A DNA stretch of 64,000 nt from Actinomycetota bacterium (GTDB lineage Bacteria > Actinomycetota > Actinomycetes > Streptosporangiales > Streptosporangiaceae), in the NCBI GenBank assembly GCA_019240215.1, contig JAFAYQ010000027.1, positions 1 to 64,000 on the forward strand, written 5' to 3'. The translations under genes were made by a program, and so were the position numbers. The number at the start of each line of letters is the position of its first letter. Positions within the stretch are counted from its first letter, which is position 1. The notes under the pieces were generated by a model. The model worked only from the letters and a program-made list of their open reading frames with translations. It did no database searches and was not told the origin of the DNA. Positions 45,120-53,347 of the stretch are shown here, in pieces.

Positions 45120-45884
45120 GTGGAGGACGAGGCCTTCCTGGCCTACGTCGCCGCCCGGCTGGGTGGCCTGCCGGCGGTGCAGGCGGTCACGCTCGGCGGT
45201 TCGCGGGCCGCCGGCACCCACCGGCCCGGCAGCGACTGGGACTTCAGCGTCTACTACCGCGGCCCGTTCGACCCGCAGGCGCTGCGCGATCTCGGCTGGC
45301 CCGGCCAGGTGTCGGAGCTCGGCGGCTGGGGCGGCGTCTTCAACGGCGGGGCCTGGCTGCAGATCGACCGCCGCCGCTGCGACGTCCACTACCGCGACCT
45401 GGACACCGTCGACCGCGAGCTGGCGGCGGCCGCGGCGGGCCGGTTTCGCATCGAGCCGCTGATGTTCCACCTGGCGGGCATCCCGTCCTACCTGGTGCTG
45501 GCTGAGCTGGCGGTCAAACGGGTGCTGCGCGGCCAGCTGCCCACCCCCGGCTACCCGGCCGCGCTGCGGGCCAGCGCCCCGGCCGTGTGGTGGGACCGCG
45601 CCGACCGGACCTTCGCCTACGCCCATGACAATTACGCCCCGTACGGCCGCCTGGCCCAGTGCACGGGCCTGGTCGCCCAGGCCGCCTCCCAGTCCGCCCA
45701 CGCGGTCCTGGCCGCCCGCGGCCAATGGACCACCAACGAGAAAACCCTGCTCACCAAAGCCGGCCTCCGCCAAGTCGACGACTTCGTGGCTGCCGCCACC
45801 CCCGACCCCGACGGCCTGCGCGCCCTGGTCAACCGCTCCCGCGCCCTCTGCCGCGCCACCCTCGAAGCCGCCGCGCCCTCCTGA
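45120..45884 (+). CDS. Nucleotidyltransferase-fold protein
   Basis: 254 residues. The polymerase-beta-like core is explicit: AVTLGGSRAAGTHRPGSDWDFSVYYRG supplies GS and DxD (SDWDFSVY), and RCDVHYRDLDTVDREL adds the third acidic position. The C-terminus is helical. It might be an aminoglycoside- or tRNA-type nucleotidyltransferase or an antitoxin-like enzyme; the target is unknown. It begins 4 bp after the GNAT gene. Pairing with an acetyltransferase is reminiscent of small modification cassettes, but that is inference. Confidence 0.83.
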   Translation: MEDEAFLAYVAARLGGLPAVQAVTLGGSRAAGTHRPGSDWDFSVYYRGPFDPQALRDLGWPGQVSELGGWGGVFNGGAWLQIDRRRCDVHYRDLDTVDRELAAAAAGRFRIEPLMFHLAGIPSYLVLAELAVKRVLRGQLPTPGYPAALRASAPAVWWDRADRTFAYAHDNYAPYGRLAQCTGLVAQAASQSAHAVLAARGQWTTNEKTLLTKAGLRQVDDFVAAATPDPDGLRALVNRSRALCRATLEAAAPS

Positions 45885-45973
45885 TAACAGCAAGAAACTC
45901 GCGGGCCACTCGGCCGCCCGCCCGGCCGCTTCTATCCGGACGCCACCGCCCCGCTCCGTGATAACAGCAAGAA
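45882..45973 (+). repeat. 15-bp direct repeat TGATAACAGCAAGAA, two copies
   Basis: TGATAACAGCAAGAA occurs at 45882-45896, spanning the stop codon of the nucleotidyltransferase gene, and again at 45959-45973, 77 bp apart. The surrounding sequence differs apart from G/C-rich similarity. It may mark a short duplication or a former insertion target; no transposase is near. Confidence 0.5.
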
Positions 45974-46030: not shown

Positions 46031-46070
46031 TTGACATAGAACAAGCTTGATGTGAAAGTGAACGTCAATG
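46031..46070 (+). promoter_or_regulatory. Likely promoter/operator of the APC-DeoR-GMC-SIS-ROK operon
   Basis: TTGACA (46031-46036) lies in a locally AT-rich stretch that also contains the palindrome CAAGCTTG and GTGAAAGTGAAC, which resembles the purine-rich half-sites of DeoR-type operators. The true -10 is not obvious. The position, about 90 bp before the permease start and upstream of an operon with its own DeoR gene, suits feedback repression. Confidence 0.4.
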
Positions 46071-46122
46071 TTGTTCGGGATGAGCTGACAGCAGGGTCCC
46101 CCGACCTCGTGTGGAGGCTGTT

Positions 46123-47592
46123 GTGGCTATTGAGGATTCCGCCCCTCGCCCGCCCGGCGTGCTGACTGATCCCGCCGACCCCGTCCACCTCGTGCACACT
46201 GACCTGCGCAAGGGGTCGGTGGGGCTGGCCGGCGTGCTCATGCAGTCGGTGGCCCAGATCTCGCCGACGCTGGGCATCTTCTACACGATCGCGTTCAACA
46301 CCGGGCAGGCCGGGAAGGTGGCGCCGCTGACCTACCTGGCCGCGTTCATCGTCTGCCTGATCATCGCGGTCCCGATGACCCGGCTGGCCCGCCACCTGCC
46401 GTCGGCCGGTGGTTTCTACACCTACGTGGCCCAGGGCATCGGCCCGCGCTGGGGCTTCATCACCGGCTGGCTGTACGCGATCATGGTGACGATCGTCCCG
46501 GCCGCGCTGGCCGCGTTCACCGGCGCGGTGCTGCACGACGAGCTGTCGGCCAAGTACGGCTTCGGCGCCCCCTGGTGGGCCTACGCGCTGGTCATCCTGG
46601 CCATCTGCCTGGCCTGCGCCTACCGGGGCATCGTGATCTCGGTCCGCTTCCTGGTCACGATGTCGCTGTTCGAGATCTGCGTCGGGCTGGGCCTGGCGCT
46701 CACCGGCGTGTTCAACCCGGGCGCGGGCGGCGTCAACGCCGACGGCTTCAACCCGGCTCACATCGGCAACTCCTCCGGCTTCTTCCTGGCCATCGTGCTG
46801 TCGATCTTCGCCTTCACCGGCTTCGAGTCGGCCGCGGCGGTGGGGGAGGAGTCCCGTAACCCCAAGCGGCTGGTGCCGATGGCGATCGCCGGCTCGCTCA
46901 TCCTCATCGGCGCGTTCTACGTGTTCTGCGCCTGGGGACTGCAGATCGGCTGGGGCACCGACCACCTCAAGGCGCTGGCCGACTCGCCCACCGCCCCCGC
47001 CTTCGTGCTGGCCGACCGGCTGTGGAGCGGCGGCTCCATCATCGTGCTGATCGCCCTGGTCAACTCCGGCCTCGGCGTCTGCATCGCCTGCACCACCAGC
47101 TCCACCCGGACGATCTTCGGGATGGCCCGTACCGGGGCGCTGCCGGCCCCGCTGGCCCGGGTCAGCAAGCGTTACCGGACCCCGGTCACCGCGGTGCTGC
47201 TGCAGACGGCGGTGGCGGTGACGATCGCGCTGGCGGCCGGCCTGCCGCTCGGTCCCTACAACCTGTTCAACCTGCTCGGCACCACCGGCACGTTCGTCTA
47301 CATCCCGATCTTCATCTTGATGAACGTGGCCGCGTTCAAGTACTTCCGCGACCAGCACCGCGACGAGTTCCGCATCCTGCCGCTGGTGGTGGCGCCGATC
47401 ATCTCCACCGCGGCGCTGATCACGATCGGTTACAAGAGCATCGTGCCGCTGCCCGCCGCCCCGGTTGCGTTCGCGCCCGCGATCGCGGCCGGCTACCTGC
47501 TGCTGGGCGTGATCGTCCTGTTCGGGCGTAATCTGCGCCCGGGCCACCGCGCCTGGATGGCCCAGGCCGGCGAGCTCCCCGACGTCGACTGA
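46123..47592 (+). CDS. APC family amino-acid/amine permease
   Basis: 489 residues with twelve hydrophobic segments: GLAGVLMQSVAQISPTLGIFYTIAF (the APC-type helix-1 break), FIVCLIIAVPMTRLARHLPSAGGFYTYVAQGIGPRWGFITGW, LSIFAFTGFESAAAVGEESRNPKRLVPMAIAGSL and TTSSTRTIFGMARTGALPAPLARVSKRYRTPVTAVL. The APC motif FTGFESAAAVGEESRNP is clear. Members import amino acids, amines or N-glycosyl amino acids. GGAGG five bases before GTG 46123 decides the start over the ORF-track GTG 46111. It is the first gene of a sugar-type operon. Confidence 0.9.
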   Translation: MAIEDSAPRPPGVLTDPADPVHLVHTDLRKGSVGLAGVLMQSVAQISPTLGIFYTIAFNTGQAGKVAPLTYLAAFIVCLIIAVPMTRLARHLPSAGGFYTYVAQGIGPRWGFITGWLYAIMVTIVPAALAAFTGAVLHDELSAKYGFGAPWWAYALVILAICLACAYRGIVISVRFLVTMSLFEICVGLGLALTGVFNPGAGGVNADGFNPAHIGNSSGFFLAIVLSIFAFTGFESAAAVGEESRNPKRLVPMAIAGSLILIGAFYVFCAWGLQIGWGTDHLKALADSPTAPAFVLADRLWSGGSIIVLIALVNSGLGVCIACTTSSTRTIFGMARTGALPAPLARVSKRYRTPVTAVLLQTAVAVTIALAAGLPLGPYNLFNLLGTTGTFVYIPIFILMNVAAFKYFRDQHRDEFRILPLVVAPIISTAALITIGYKSIVPLPAAPVAFAPAIAAGYLLLGVIVLFGRNLRPGHRAWMAQAGELPDVD

Positions 47593-47642
47593 CCGCCCGC
47601 CCGAGAGCGCCGAACCCAAGACCGAACCCCAGGAGGCACGTC

Positions 47643-48398
47643 GTGCAAGCCGAGGAACGGCAGCAGACGATTCTGCAGCTGCTGGACGCCCGTGGCCAGG
47701 TGACGATCGCCGACCTCAGCGGCCGGTTCGCGGTCTCCGAGATGACGATCCGCCGGGACCTGGCGCAGCTGGAAGCCGAGGGCCTGCTGCGCCGGACCCA
47801 CGGCGGCGCCACCCGCACCGCCAGCGGCAGCTTCGAGCCGCCGTTCGCGCTGCGGGCCCGGCTGCACCTGGACGCCAAGCGCGCGATCGCCGCCGACATC
47901 GCCGGCCGCCTGGTCGACGGGCAGACCGTGGTGCTCGACGGCGGCAGCACCGGGGCGGTGATCGCCGAGGCGATCGCCGGCCGCAACCTGACCGTCTGCG
48001 CGCTCAACATGCGGGTGGCCGAGATCCTGTCGTCCTCGCCCAGCACCCGGGTCATGGTTCCCGGTGGCCTGATCCGGCCGGGCGAGCTGTCGCTGATCGG
48101 CCCGGCCGCTGAGCGCACGCTGGCCGACCACCGCTTCGACACCTACGTGATGACGGTCTCGGCGGTCGACGCCTCGGCCGGGCTGACCGAGTGGAACGTC
48201 GAGGACGCGGCGGTCAAGCGGGCCGCGCTGGCCTCCTCCAGCCGCTGCGTCGTGGCCTGCGACTCCTCCAAGTTCGGGCAGACCGCGTTTGCCCGCATCG
48301 CCGGCCTCGACGCCGCCGACCTCATCGTCACCGACCCCGGCCTCGACGCCGAGCACCGCAACGTCGTCGCGGCCGGGGCCGTTCTGCACATCGCCTGA
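47643..48398 (+). CDS. DeoR family transcriptional regulator
   Basis: 251 residues: RQQTILQLLDARGQVTIADLSGRFAVSEMTIRRDLAQLEAEGLLRRTHGGATR is the canonical DeoR HTH, and TVVLDGGSTGAVIAEAIAGRNLTVCALN, MTVSAVDASAGLTEWNVEDAAVKRAALASSSRCVVACDSSKFGQTAFARIA form the sugar-phosphate isomerase-like effector domain. It should sense a phosphorylated sugar intermediate made by the ROK kinase or SIS enzyme and derepress the operon. AGGAGG lies before the GTG. Confidence 0.92.
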   Translation: MQAEERQQTILQLLDARGQVTIADLSGRFAVSEMTIRRDLAQLEAEGLLRRTHGGATRTASGSFEPPFALRARLHLDAKRAIAADIAGRLVDGQTVVLDGGSTGAVIAEAIAGRNLTVCALNMRVAEILSSSPSTRVMVPGGLIRPGELSLIGPAAERTLADHRFDTYVMTVSAVDASAGLTEWNVEDAAVKRAALASSSRCVVACDSSKFGQTAFARIAGLDAADLIVTDPGLDAEHRNVVAAGAVLHIA

Positions 48399-48409
48399 AG
48401 GAACCCGCC

Positions 48410-49930
48410 ATGACCCAAGCACCGCTATCCGACGAGACTGGCACCGTTGTCATCGGCGCCGGTACCGGCGGCGCCGCCTTCGCCGGCCTGCTGGCCCGTC
48501 ACAGCGACGAGCCGATCCTGCTGCTCGACGCCGGCCCCGACTACGGGCCGTTCGACCCGGCCCGCTGGCCGGGCGACATGCTCGACGCCAAGTCGATCCC
48601 GCTGTCGCACGACTGGGGCCTGGTCTCGGCCCCGCCGCAGCGGCTGGACCTGCCCCGCGCCCGCATCGTCGGCGGCTGCTCGGCCCACAACGGCTGCACG
48701 ATCTCCCGCAGCGCCCGGGCCGACTACGACGGCTGGGCGGCGGCCGGCAACCCCGGCTGGGACGCGGCCACGGTCGAGCCGCTGCTGGACTGGGCGCACG
48801 AGCGCTTCCGGGTCCGCCGGTACCGGATGGACGAGCTGACCGTGGCCCAGGCCGCGTTCGTCAATGCGGGCGTCCGCACCGGCCTGCCGTTCGCCGACGA
48901 CCTCGACGACCTGGCGGCCGGCCCCGGTATCGGGCCGATGCCGGTCAACATCGTCGACGGCGTCCGCTGGAACGCCGCCTTCGCGTTCCTCGACCCGGTC
49001 CGCGACCGGCCCGGCCTGCGGATCGCCGCGCGTACCCACGTCCGCCGGATCCTGATCGGTAACGGCGCCGCCACCGGCGTCGAGGTGACCGGGCCGGACG
49101 GCCGGGCCGCCACCATCCGCGCCCGCCGGGTCGTGGTCGCGGCCGGCGCCTACCACTCACCGGCGCTGCTGCAGCGCTCCGGGATCGGGGCGGCCGACCG
49201 GCTGCGCGGCCTCGGTCTCGACGTGGCCGCCGACCTGCCCGGCGTCGGCGCCCACCTGCTCGACCACGCCTGCGTCGAGCTCGACTTCAACGGCCGCCCC
49301 GGCCTCGCCGATGAGCTGGCTGCCCAGGCCTGGAACCCGGACGAGCAGACCGTGGGCCGGGCCCGGTCGGCCCGCTGCGACGACGGGCCCTACGACATCC
49401 ACGTGTTCATGGTGGCCGGCGCCAACAGCGGTCACCCCGGGCTGCCGCCGATCAGCCTGTACGGCGGGGCGATGCGCGCGATCTCCGAAGGCCAGGTCAC
49501 GATCGGCCGCGCCGACCCGGACGCCAACCCCACGGTCGACCATCGCTACGGCACCGACCCCGGCGGCCACGACCGGGCGGTGCTGGCCGAGGCGCTGGCG
49601 CTGCTGCGCGACCTGACCCGCGATCCCGGCCTGCGCGACCTGCTCGGTACCGAGCACCGTCCCGAGCGTGACCCGCTGGCCGGCATCGTGAGCTACTGCC
49701 ACCCGGCCGGCACCTGCAAGATGGGACCGGCCAGCGACCCGGGCGCGGTGGTCGGCCCGACCGGGGCGGTGCACGGCCTGGACGGGCTCTACGTCTGCGA
49801 CGCTTCGATCATGCCCGCCATCACCCGCGGCAACATCAACCTGCCGACCGCCATGATCGGCGCCCGCGTCGCGGCCGGCCTGCTCGGGCTCGACCCGGCC
49901 CGCGCAGCCGGTCTCATCCACCAGAACTGA
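48410..49930 (+). CDS. GMC family FAD oxidoreductase
   Basis: 506 residues. FAD binding is shown by GTVVIGAGTGGAAFAGLLARHSDEPILLLDAGPDYG, with GGCSAHNGCTISRSARADYDGWAAAGNPGW matching GMC signature 1 and VVVAAGAYHSPALLQRSGIG signature 2. The C-terminal SYCHPAGTCKMG and ASIMPAITRGNINLPTAMIG carry the catalytic His and Asn. GMC enzymes oxidise primary alcohols of choline, polyols or sugars. Only the C-terminal three quarters of ORF-track entry 48191-49930 is real; ATG 48410 follows GAAGGAACCC. Within this operon it may oxidise a sugar or sugar-alcohol substrate before phosphorylation. Confidence 0.9.
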   Translation: MTQAPLSDETGTVVIGAGTGGAAFAGLLARHSDEPILLLDAGPDYGPFDPARWPGDMLDAKSIPLSHDWGLVSAPPQRLDLPRARIVGGCSAHNGCTISRSARADYDGWAAAGNPGWDAATVEPLLDWAHERFRVRRYRMDELTVAQAAFVNAGVRTGLPFADDLDDLAAGPGIGPMPVNIVDGVRWNAAFAFLDPVRDRPGLRIAARTHVRRILIGNGAATGVEVTGPDGRAATIRARRVVVAAGAYHSPALLQRSGIGAADRLRGLGLDVAADLPGVGAHLLDHACVELDFNGRPGLADELAAQAWNPDEQTVGRARSARCDDGPYDIHVFMVAGANSGHPGLPPISLYGGAMRAISEGQVTIGRADPDANPTVDHRYGTDPGGHDRAVLAEALALLRDLTRDPGLRDLLGTEHRPERDPLAGIVSYCHPAGTCKMGPASDPGAVVGPTGAVHGLDGLYVCDASIMPAITRGNINLPTAMIGARVAAGLLGLDPARAAGLIHQN

Positions 49931-49951
49931 CCCACGGGAGCGCAACCGACG

Positions 49952-50962
49952 ATGAGCCTGACCCCGTTCGAACGTGACATCGCGGCCCAGCCCGAGGCGC
50001 TGCGCGCCTTCGCCCACACCGACGGCCTCCCGGGCCTGACCGCGCTGGACCCTGGCCGCTACGACCGGATCGTGCTCACCGGCATGGGCTCCTCGCACGA
50101 CGCCGCCCTGCCGACCTGGCGGCGGCTGGCGGGCGCCGGCCGGGCGGCCTGGTGGGTCGACACCGGCCAGCTGCTGGACACCCCCGAGCTGGTCACCGAC
50201 CGCACCTTGCTGATCGTCACCTCCCAGTCGGGGGCCAGCGGTGAGGTCGTGTCGCTGCTGGCCGCCCAGCCCCGGCCCGCCACCCTGGTCGCGGTCACCA
50301 ACGACCCCGCCAGCCCCCTGGCCACCGCCGCCGACCTGGTCATCGCGCTGCACAGCGGCGACGAGGCCACCGTCAGCACCAAGAGCTACCTGAACAGCCT
50401 GGCCGCCCACGACCTGCTGGCCGCCACCTTGACCAGGACCGCGCCCGCCGACGTGCTGGCGGTGGCCAAGGTCGTCGAGGAGTCCGGCGCCGACGCCGGG
50501 CTCGCCCCGCTGGCCCGCCAGCTGGTCGCGGCCGGCCACCCGCGGCTGGCCTACGTCGGGTTCGGCGACTACGCGGCCACCGCCCGCTACGCCGGGCTGA
50601 TCACCAAAGAAGGCGCCAAGATGGCGGCCGAGGGCTTCATCGGCGGCCAGTTCCGGCACGGCCCGCTCGAGCTGGCCGGCCCGGGCCTGCTGGCGGTGCT
50701 GTTCGGGGCCGATGACCCGGCCGCCAACGCCTCGCTGCAGCGGCTGGCGGCCGACCTGACCGGGGCCGGCTCGGCCGTGGTGGCGGTCGCCGCCTTGGAC
50801 GTCCCCGGGGCGGCCCTCCAGCTCCGGCCGCCCGCCGGGGTGCTGGCTCAGCTCGCCCACGGGGCGGTGGCGGCCCAGCACCTGACGGTGGCGCTGGCCC
50901 GGGCCCGCGGGATCACCCCGGGCGCGTTCGCCTACGGCAGCAAGATCACCACCGCCCTGTGA
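49952..50962 (+). CDS. Two-SIS-domain sugar-phosphate isomerase/deglycase (GlmS-isomerase/FrlB-like)
   Basis: 336 residues with two SIS folds: RIVLTGMGSSHDAALPTW, LLIVTSQSGASGEVVSLL and LVAVTNDPASPLATAADLVI, then AYVGFGDYAATARYAGLITKEGAKMAAEGFIGGQFRHGPLEL. Aligning to E. coli GlmS, the Glu of TKEGAK matches Glu488, His of FRHGP matches His504, and Lys of the C-terminal SKITTAL matches Lys603; the position of Lys485 is Ile. No glutaminase domain is present. The operon makes it a candidate deglycase/deaminase of a phosphorylated amino-sugar conjugate. AG-rich sequence precedes ATG 49952. Confidence 0.86.
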   Translation: MSLTPFERDIAAQPEALRAFAHTDGLPGLTALDPGRYDRIVLTGMGSSHDAALPTWRRLAGAGRAAWWVDTGQLLDTPELVTDRTLLIVTSQSGASGEVVSLLAAQPRPATLVAVTNDPASPLATAADLVIALHSGDEATVSTKSYLNSLAAHDLLAATLTRTAPADVLAVAKVVEESGADAGLAPLARQLVAAGHPRLAYVGFGDYAATARYAGLITKEGAKMAAEGFIGGQFRHGPLELAGPGLLAVLFGADDPAANASLQRLAADLTGAGSAVVAVAALDVPGAALQLRPPAGVLAQLAHGAVAAQHLTVALARARGITPGAFAYGSKITTAL

Positions 50963-51825
50963 CCGGGACCTTCACGCTGGGCGTGGACCTGGGCGGCACC
51001 GGCACCCGGGTCGTCGCCCTCGATGCCGGCGGCGCGGTGATCCGCCAGGCCAGCTTCCGCACCGCCACCGGTGCCCCCGACGCCGCCGTCCCGGGCCTGC
51101 TGGCCGAGCTGGATGCCCTGGCCGACGGGCTCGAAGTGACGGCGGCCGGGATCGGCGCCAGCGGGCCGGTCACCGCCGAGGGCATCATCGACAACCCGGC
51201 CACGCTGCCCGCCTATACGGGCGTCGATATCTGCGCTTTTACAGAAAAAGTGACCGGCTGGCGTTGCGTCATCGACAACGACGCGGCCGCCGCCGCCATC
51301 GGCGAATACGCCTACGGAGCCGGGCGCGGCAGCCGCACCTGCGTCACCGTTACCCTCGGCACCGGCATCGGGGTGGCGGTGGTGACCGGCGGGCAGCTGT
51401 TCCGGGCCGGCGACGGCACCCACCCCGAGGCCGGCCACCTGGCCGTCCCCGACGCGCCGGTGCCCTGCTACTGCGGCCTGGCCCGGTGCTGGGAGCAGGC
51501 CGCCTCGCGGGCCGCCCTGGAGGGGCTGACCAGCGGCGACCCCGCGACTGCGGCCGCCGCCGCCCGCCGCGGCGAGCCCGGCCCGGTGGCCGCCTTCGCG
51601 CTCTACGGCCAGCGGCTGGCGGCCGGGCTCGGCACCCTGCTGACCGTGTTCCGGCCCGACCGGGTGGTGCTCGGCGGCTCGGCCGCCCGCTACCTCGACC
51701 TGTTCGCCCCGGCCCTGGCCGCGGGCCTGGACCACGACGCCCCCTACCAGTGGACCCCGCCCGTGGTCCCCGCCGAGCTGGGTGACCTGGCCGGCGCGGT
51801 CGGGGCGGCGGTGCTGGCCCGGTGA
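50959..51825 (+). CDS. ROK family sugar kinase
   Basis: 288 residues: FTLGVDLGGTGTRVVALD (phosphate-1 motif), GIGASGPVTAEGIIDNPATL, CVIDNDAAAAAIGEYAYGAG, VTLGTGIGVAVVTGGQLF, and the ROK zinc signature GHLAVPDAPVPCYCGLARCWEQAASRAAL. ROK enzymes phosphorylate glucose, N-acetylmannosamine, allose or fructose. The GTG start overlaps the SIS stop by four bases (GTGA), so the two are made in equal amounts. The kinase probably phosphorylates the imported or oxidised sugar before the SIS step. Confidence 0.91.
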   Translation: MTGTFTLGVDLGGTGTRVVALDAGGAVIRQASFRTATGAPDAAVPGLLAELDALADGLEVTAAGIGASGPVTAEGIIDNPATLPAYTGVDICAFTEKVTGWRCVIDNDAAAAAIGEYAYGAGRGSRTCVTVTLGTGIGVAVVTGGQLFRAGDGTHPEAGHLAVPDAPVPCYCGLARCWEQAASRAALEGLTSGDPATAAAAARRGEPGPVAAFALYGQRLAAGLGTLLTVFRPDRVVLGGSAARYLDLFAPALAAGLDHDAPYQWTPPVVPAELGDLAGAVGAAVLAR

Positions 51826-52656: not shown

Positions 52657-52741
52657 CCAGGCGCTATTTCCCGGAATCAATTGATTGCGGTGCTCTAGCC
52701 TGCTGCCATACCTCACAATATGGATCAGAAGGAATTGCGCC

Positions 52742-53347
52742 ATGAGCATCGCCACGATGGTGGACACCCGGATCGCCCGGCAGCAGGCCGAGAATATAAA
52801 CAGTCCCAGCCCGGACAAGCCGGTCGGCGCCCCGACCGATCTGGTCAACCAGATCACGCGCTGGATACCGACCGAGACGATAACGATTTACGTCGCCCTT
52901 CTCGCTTTGCTGGCCCCGGTCGCCAGACACGCGCCCACGTATCAGAGCCGCTGGGTGCTGCTGGGCATTGTCGCCGCGTCCAACCCGGTGGTGGTTTATC
53001 TGCTCACCAAAGCCAAGACCCAGACAAAGAAAATTCAAATGCCCTGGTTCGAGATGATGGTCGCGCCGGTGGCGTTCGCGGCCTGGGCCTTCGCGCTGCC
53101 GGACACGCCGCTCAGCTCGATCCCCGGCTACCAGCTCAAGTGGAACGCGGCCATCGTCACCGTCACCACCACCGCGATCGTGCTGATCGCCAACGCCCTG
53201 CACAACTCACCCGACTACGACCAGGTGGTGACGATCCAGCAGGGCGCCCAGTCCGAGCACCCGATCGACATGAGCGTGCCCGCCGTCGCGCCCCGGACCG
53301 CGCCCAGCACCAGCCCCAAGACGCCGGCCGCGGTCACCGGCTCGTAG
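52742..53347 (+). CDS. Small membrane protein of unknown function
   Basis: 201 residues. The cytoplasmic N-terminus (SIATMVDTRIARQQAENINSPSPDKPVGAPTD) is followed by VNQITRWIPTETITIYVALLALL, RWVLLGIVAASNPVVVYLLTK, WFEMMVAPVAFAAWAFAL and AAIVTVTTTAIVLIANAL, giving about four helices, and a Pro/Thr-rich tail. The PTDLVNQITRWIPTET motif is distinctive, but I do not recognise its family. AAGGA precedes ATG 52742. The 5' region is less GC-rich than neighbours. It overlaps the convergent amidohydrolase by 14 bp. Confidence 0.78.
   Translation: MSIATMVDTRIARQQAENINSPSPDKPVGAPTDLVNQITRWIPTETITIYVALLALLAPVARHAPTYQSRWVLLGIVAASNPVVVYLLTKAKTQTKKIQMPWFEMMVAPVAFAAWAFALPDTPLSSIPGYQLKWNAAIVTVTTTAIVLIANALHNSPDYDQVVTIQQGAQSEHPIDMSVPAVAPRTAPSTSPKTPAAVTGS

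Follow-up and report, generated by a model that had tools for sequence, protein, structure and literature searches.

An APC permease, a DeoR regulator, a GMC flavoprotein, a SIS enzyme and a ROK kinase form a conserved actinobacterial unit and a candidate operon for the catabolism of amine-bearing sugars

The window analyzed here is a stretch of 64,000 nucleotides from an Actinomycetota bacterium of the family Streptosporangiaceae (assembly GCA_019240215.1, contig JAFAYQ010000027.1, positions 1 to 64,000). Five reading frames, all open and on the + strand, occupy positions 46123-51825 and may be an operon by which the bacterium breaks down a sugar or sugar alcohol that bears an amine. They encode, in order (aa, amino acids):

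46123-47592, + strand: APC-superfamily permease, 489 aa (Pfam AA_permease, 3e-41)
47643-48398, + strand: DeoR/GlpR-family regulator, 251 aa (Pfam DeoRC, 1e-39, with HTH_DeoR)
48410-49930, + strand: GMC flavoprotein, 506 aa (Pfam GMC_oxred_N, 1e-33, and GMC_oxred_C, 1e-26)
49952-50962, + strand: SIS enzyme, GlmS/NagB-II-like, 336 aa (Pfam SIS, 6e-17)
50959-51825, + strand: ROK-family sugar kinase, 288 aa (Pfam ROK, PF00480, 2e-45)

Each of the five family assignments passes the Pfam gathering score. The SIS and ROK genes overlap by the four letters GTGA (50959-50962), the remaining intergenic gaps measure 50, 11 and 21 base pairs (bp), and the APC gene has a GTG start codon with GGAGG immediately 5' of it. 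Coordinates and Pfam matches agree with the original prediction, made from the sequence alone, of five same-strand genes with this overlap, a DeoR gene inside the unit and a kinase of the ROK rather than the PfkB family.

The identical order APC-DeoR-GMC-SIS-ROK is found in six other actinobacterial loci (L007 from Specibacter, L015, L034, L035, L036 and L038), so that synteny across actinomycetes, which the original prediction had proposed to compare, is indeed observed. In four more loci the genes are rearranged, either as DeoR-APC-GMC-SIS-ROK (L037 and L039) or as SIS-ROK-APC-GMC with a divergent DeoR gene (L003 from Pseudarthrobacter and L005 from Arthrobacter). The actinobacterial versions share with the window proteins 66-76% identity for APC, whose orthologues are present in 11 other loci, 62-70% for GMC, about 48-54% for SIS and about 35-50% for ROK. 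The five genes are a genuine conserved unit and not a chance neighborhood. An all-against-all comparison of the flanking open reading frames across loci revealed no additional conserved partner, and for this reason we let the unit end at ROK.

The constant core across loci consists of DeoR, SIS and ROK, around which the transporter may be APC, ABC or an MFS sugar porter. An ABC importer takes the place of APC in L004 (Phytoactinopolyspora) and L017, which retain GMC. GMC is absent from L008, L009 (Erwinia) and L045, which have a sugar-type binding-protein-dependent ABC importer, and from L033 (Klebsiella plasmid pKP02022), L043 and L044, which have an MFS sugar porter. On a Deinococcus plasmid (L032) we found DeoR-GMC-SIS with no ROK gene alongside. 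The complete genome that hosts L014, from the window's own family, carries APC-DeoR-SIS-ROK but lacks GMC; the closest GMC protein anywhere in this genome is about 40% identical. Since this complete genome and the enterobacterial versions do without it, GMC is an optional module, and the pathway can exist in its absence. The GMC-less DeoR, SIS and ROK genes with an MFS sugar porter (8012-12336 of L033) occur on about 100 Klebsiella plasmid records, and 96 of the 108 SIS-bearing plasmids are predicted to be conjugative.

Few genomes carry a close homologue of the SIS protein. There are 4 among 394 genomes of the class, 2 among 60 near relatives, 8 among 299 in the family of genome G324 and 4 among 198 in the family to which the Erwinia genome belongs, each count taking the window's own genome or the centre genome as a match. 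Genome G001, of the same genus and 96% complete, has no such homologue. This patchy distribution, together with plasmid carriage and rearrangement, suggests that the unit has been transferred horizontally.

A second subfamily of GMC proteins accompanies a related core in proteobacteria. On a Paraburkholderia plasmid (L052), ROK-SIS and DeoR are divergent; next come an APC gene (47% identical to that of the window) and a GMC gene annotated as choline dehydrogenase. L054 (Shinella) and L055 (Ensifer) have an ABC importer and GMC-GntR-ROK-SIS. The proteobacterial GMC proteins are 59-90% identical mutually and 28-31% identical to the window GMC; the SIS proteins are 34-42% identical to that of the window. 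When the Aminobacter GMC was used as query against 72,556 plasmid records, the five best other records were exactly those with the SIS/ROK core. Our strongest evidence is that two distant GMC subfamilies join one SIS/ROK core, and on this ground we take oxidation as a step of the pathway: it very likely lies on-pathway and was probably recruited twice. The association of GMC with SIS and ROK, proposed originally from the window, is thereby strengthened. The Rhizobiales counterpart is seen also on plasmid pUSP2 of Aminobacter sp. MSH1 (749-10590 of L053), as a sugar ABC importer with GntR-ROK-SIS-GMC, and the ROK kinases of the Aminobacter, Shinella and Ensifer counterpart are merely 26-30% identical.

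To place the SIS protein, we relied on profiles, folds and phylogeny. GlmS-type solved proteins were the best matches of its profile (E 7.5e-27), the closest solved standalone enzymes were glucosamine 6-phosphate (GlcN6P) deaminases (7kqa, 2.3e-20; 8eol, 4.8e-17), and the deglycase structure 3eua matched far more weakly (1.5e-6). The AlphaFold 2 model, with a mean pLDDT of 83.8, gave Z scores of 33-35 to GlmS, 26-29 to NagB-II and 25.7 to FrlB (8glr), and Foldseek ranked it on the GlmS/NagB-II side. We claim no active-site geometry, because the model is low-confidence at residues 231-239 and 327-336. In the maximum-likelihood tree, 22 SIS orthologues form one branch (100/97), which the Rhizobiales type adjoins (joint branch 100/98), and a 100/99 branch splits them from FrlB, MocD and Mas2', with a warning of long branches. 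The tree does not include NagB-II, for which the comparison used PDB alignments and fold Z scores alone; a genome search for NagB-II reference sequences returned solely GlmS-sized proteins below cut-off, and the SIS protein scores 59.5 bits with the NagB-II model NF046059, whose cut-off is 430. For AgaS the branch is very long, and we do not trust its placement. Tree, profile and fold thus all assign the SIS protein to the GlmS/NagB-II side, apart from FrlB and MocD, and do not support the original assignment to the deglycases of the frl type. Two SIS proteins of octopine Ti (tumor-inducing) plasmids, at 18142-19224 of L049 and 18914-19936 of L050, which we take to be Mas2' (opine synthesis, on the side of the transferred DNA) and MocD (opine breakdown), fall beside FrlB, on long branches of the tree.

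The placement of the SIS protein is directly relevant to a reading of the Amadori or mannopine type, a more precise form of the original interpretation, which we consider unlikely. The substrate would be an N-(1-deoxyalditol)-amine, for instance a mannityl opine or an N-alkylglucamine; GMC would oxidize C2 to yield a fructosamine, ROK would phosphorylate it, and SIS would deglycate the product to glucose 6-phosphate and the amine. The tree split, read with the caution that long branches urge, and the far weaker match to FrlB-type structures than to GlmS both speak against it, as does a kinase that is ROK and not PfkB. In its favor, the Ti plasmid sets a SIS protein beside an SDR protein and a protein resembling fructoselysine-6-kinase, and we assign the Ti plasmid genes to mocC, mocD and mocE. 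Fructosamine systems likewise use APC (FrlA) or ABC carriers (PMC12632257), and the mannopine pathway follows the same logic, with mocC acting before mocD (PMC6341043). A mocC mutant is unable to make deoxyfructosyl glutamine from mannopine, yet it responds when this compound is supplied, and mocD is required for the breakdown of deoxyfructosyl glutamine (PMC6341043). Oxidation in the mannopine pathway is thus dispensable when the oxidized compound is supplied, and by analogy it may be an entry step here too.

The active site departs from all these relatives. The roles of Glu488, His504, Lys603, Lys485 and Glu481 in GlmS are known for the family. The equivalents of the first three, Glu220, His236 and Lys331 in the window, are kept in 22 of 22 orthologues; Lys485 and Glu481 are replaced by Ile217 and Tyr213 in the window and lost in every family member, and they are kept in 3fj1, 7kqa and 8eol. 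The Lys485 position is not lysine in FrlB or MocD either, a point in favor of the Amadori type, and MocD may keep the lid lysine. Because the Glu/His/Lys set is kept but Lys485 and Glu481 are lost, the site is neither that of a standard deaminase nor that of a standard deglycase.

A lost Lys485 position may alter the chemistry, and GlmS isomerizes a sugar phosphate. The SIS protein might then be an aldose-ketose phosphate isomerase, acting with no release of an amine on an unusual sugar that GMC derives from a polyol or glycoside and ROK phosphorylates. The replacement transporters, which include sugar ABC importers and MFS sugar porters, would suit such a nitrogen-free route. It is nevertheless improbable, given that the nearest solved standalone enzymes are GlcN6P deaminases and that thirteen loci, the window and one Paraburkholderia locus among them, use an APC carrier. 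Amino acids and amines are the typical cargo of the APC superfamily.

The GMC protein belongs to its superfamily (PF00732, 117 bits; PF05199, 94 bits) and can be aligned with choline oxidase over most of its length. The motifs GGCSAHN (at His93), HPAG (His431) and GNIN are conserved in 13 orthologues. Choline oxidase carries flavin adenine dinucleotide on the histidine of its GGCS-x-HN motif, and its substrate is an alcohol neighboring a nitrogen-bearing carbon. The likeness fits an aminated polyol as substrate, without proving it. With the choline dehydrogenase models the protein scores 243.6 of 605 bits (PRK02106) and 220.2 of 732 (betA), below both cut-offs, and its structure prediction (pLDDT 35, from four sequences) was excluded from any interpretation of the pocket. 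MftG, and with it mycofactocin as electron acceptor, was dropped as a candidate (TIGR03970, 234.6 bits against a cut-off of 387).

A choline-oxidase-like and optional GMC might also act downstream, with SIS and ROK splitting a conjugate of a sugar and an amino alcohol, and GMC oxidizing the freed ethanolamine- or choline-like amino alcohol; hosts without GMC could excrete the amine or use it otherwise. We regard this as very improbable, since the unit has no conserved downstream partner that would encode an aldehyde dehydrogenase or handle the amine, and the GMC scores lie far under the choline dehydrogenase cut-offs.

The kinase has the catalytic Asp and the CxCG...CxE motif of ROK sugar kinases (PF00480, 156 bits), and the motifs HPEAGH and CYCG...CWE are conserved in 20 orthologues. 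Its substrate class is not resolved by the NCBIfam models, and the APC permease reaches no NCBIfam equivalog. For DeoR, the nearest curated NCBIfam models are GlpR and AgaR, both below cut-off. Upstream of the APC gene we identified two further features:

46059-46077, + strand: candidate DeoR operator, inverted repeat TGAACGTCAATGTTGTTCG, 46 bp 5' of the APC start
46031-46036, + strand: possible -35 box TTGACA, separated by 17 bp from a weak GAAAGT -10 box, read from the sequence

Pairs of the form TGAACA-N6/7-TGTTCA lie upstream in 9 of the 11 actinobacterial versions, at a distance of some 40-105 bp from the approximate start, and 12 such pairs were found when 0.84 were expected from mononucleotide shuffles. 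As the motif was first picked by eye, these statistics are indicative, and looser matching across the whole window returned 8 occurrences against 4.85 expected, with no significant enrichment. The pairs are suggestive of a DeoR operator, which in the window would overlap the transcription start if TTGACA is the -35 box. The enterobacterial versions have GCACGA...TCGTGC repeats instead.

Just 5' of the operon, TGATAACAGCAAGAA occurs at 45882-45896 and 45959-45973, when 0.01 copies are expected in the window. The window's genome (G000) has 39 copies (none of the reversed control), often with GC directly after them and frequently in tandem, 46-110 bp apart; there are 9 copies in G001 and none in eight other genomes of the family. 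This is a genus-specific dispersed intergenic repeat. On the other side of the operon, the GNAT and hypothetical genes were rejected as operon members, none being conserved with the unit across loci. Just 3' of the GNAT gene, positions 52685-53347 encode a predicted 220-residue protein with hydrophobic stretches, for which Pfam and NCBIfam give no match.

The sequence comparisons show the gene families, the operon structure and its conservation, the optional GMC, the exchangeable transporters and the conserved catalytic residues; we infer every reaction of the pathway and the sequence in which they run, as well as its substrate and effector. The APC permease would import an amine-bearing sugar or polyol. 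GMC would oxidize one of its alcohols, probably near the nitrogen-bearing carbon, to the carbonyl (sugar) form, which the ROK kinase would phosphorylate, probably at O6. Glu220 and His236 of the SIS protein, with the lid residue Lys331, would transfer a proton between C1 and C2, and the amine or ammonia would leave, with a hexose 6-phosphate as product. DeoR would repress the operon until a phosphorylated intermediate appears. We give about an even chance to such an inducible, self-contained operon that breaks down an amine-bearing sugar or an aminated sugar alcohol.

An amine-bearing sugar, as originally proposed, is the most economical reading of the gene set, because the transporters, with APC suited to amines and ABC and MFS to sugars, come with a kinase and a GlmS/NagB-like enzyme. 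Some observations weigh against it: none of the five proteins reaches the curated NCBIfam cut-offs of characterized families, APC is the sole direct pointer to an amine, and the family-wide loss of Lys485 and Glu481 makes standard GlcN6P deamination doubtful. Since the SIS protein groups with GlmS and NagB-II, we lean towards C2-amine chemistry, in which an aminosugar or a 2-amino-alditol would give fructose 6-phosphate; the lost Lys485 and the mannopine analogy would favor a C1 amine of the Amadori type, with glucose 6-phosphate as product. The GMC-less operons agree with oxidation as an entry step, one that a host can do without if it imports the oxidized compound directly. More tentatively, and with rather less than even confidence, GMC, ROK and SIS, with exchangeable transporters, may form an undescribed module in which the flavin oxidase passes an aminated sugar alcohol to an altered-site SIS enzyme with a novel deamination or deglycation activity, assembled independently in actinobacteria and proteobacteria and spread by plasmids.

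Among open-licence papers, we found none joining a GMC oxidoreductase, a SIS domain and the ROK family, and nothing relevant on the catabolism of meglumine, kanosamine or aminopolyols, both being weak absences. Catabolic operons with a kinase and a SIS protein are known; what is added here is a flavin oxidase apparently recruited twice and a SIS subfamily with a changed site. If true, an oxidative entry step would be added to the kinase-plus-SIS logic of Amadori and aminosugar catabolism, and a generically annotated SIS subfamily with a rewired site would gain a testable function. The subfamily occurs in soil actinobacteria, in plant-associated Erwinia and on about 100 plasmids of Klebsiella, and the identity of the substrate would help explain why the cassette is retained on conjugative Klebsiella plasmids. 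The natural versions with and without GMC allow a direct comparison that can test its role.

Several known systems resemble the operon in part. The frl operons of Escherichia coli and Bacillus subtilis and the fra operon of Salmonella also combine an importer or permease, a sugar kinase and a SIS protein, and that of E. coli has an APC permease as in the window; however, their kinase is PfkB, whereas the window has ROK, a DeoR regulator, an extra GMC and a SIS protein on the GlmS/NagB-II side rather than with FrlB. Mannopine catabolism on Ti plasmids (MocC, MocE and MocD) likewise has alcohol oxidation followed by a kinase and a SIS protein, but its oxidoreductase is SDR, its kinase PfkB-type and its SIS protein distantly related. 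The soc genes for santhopine in tobacco-root Arthrobacter are a different system (PMC8262997). Choline oxidase and choline dehydrogenase share with the window GMC the fold family and the GGCS-x-HN, HP-x-GT and GN-x-N motifs; the window GMC differs in its scores (220-244 bits against 605-732) and in its context, which is a sugar kinase and a SIS protein and not betaine synthesis. The NagB-II deaminases with a ROK aminosugar kinase have the same GlmS-type SIS protein without the glutaminase domain and the same Glu, His and lid Lys, from which the window family is set apart by the changed Lys485 and Glu481 positions in every member and by the addition of GMC.

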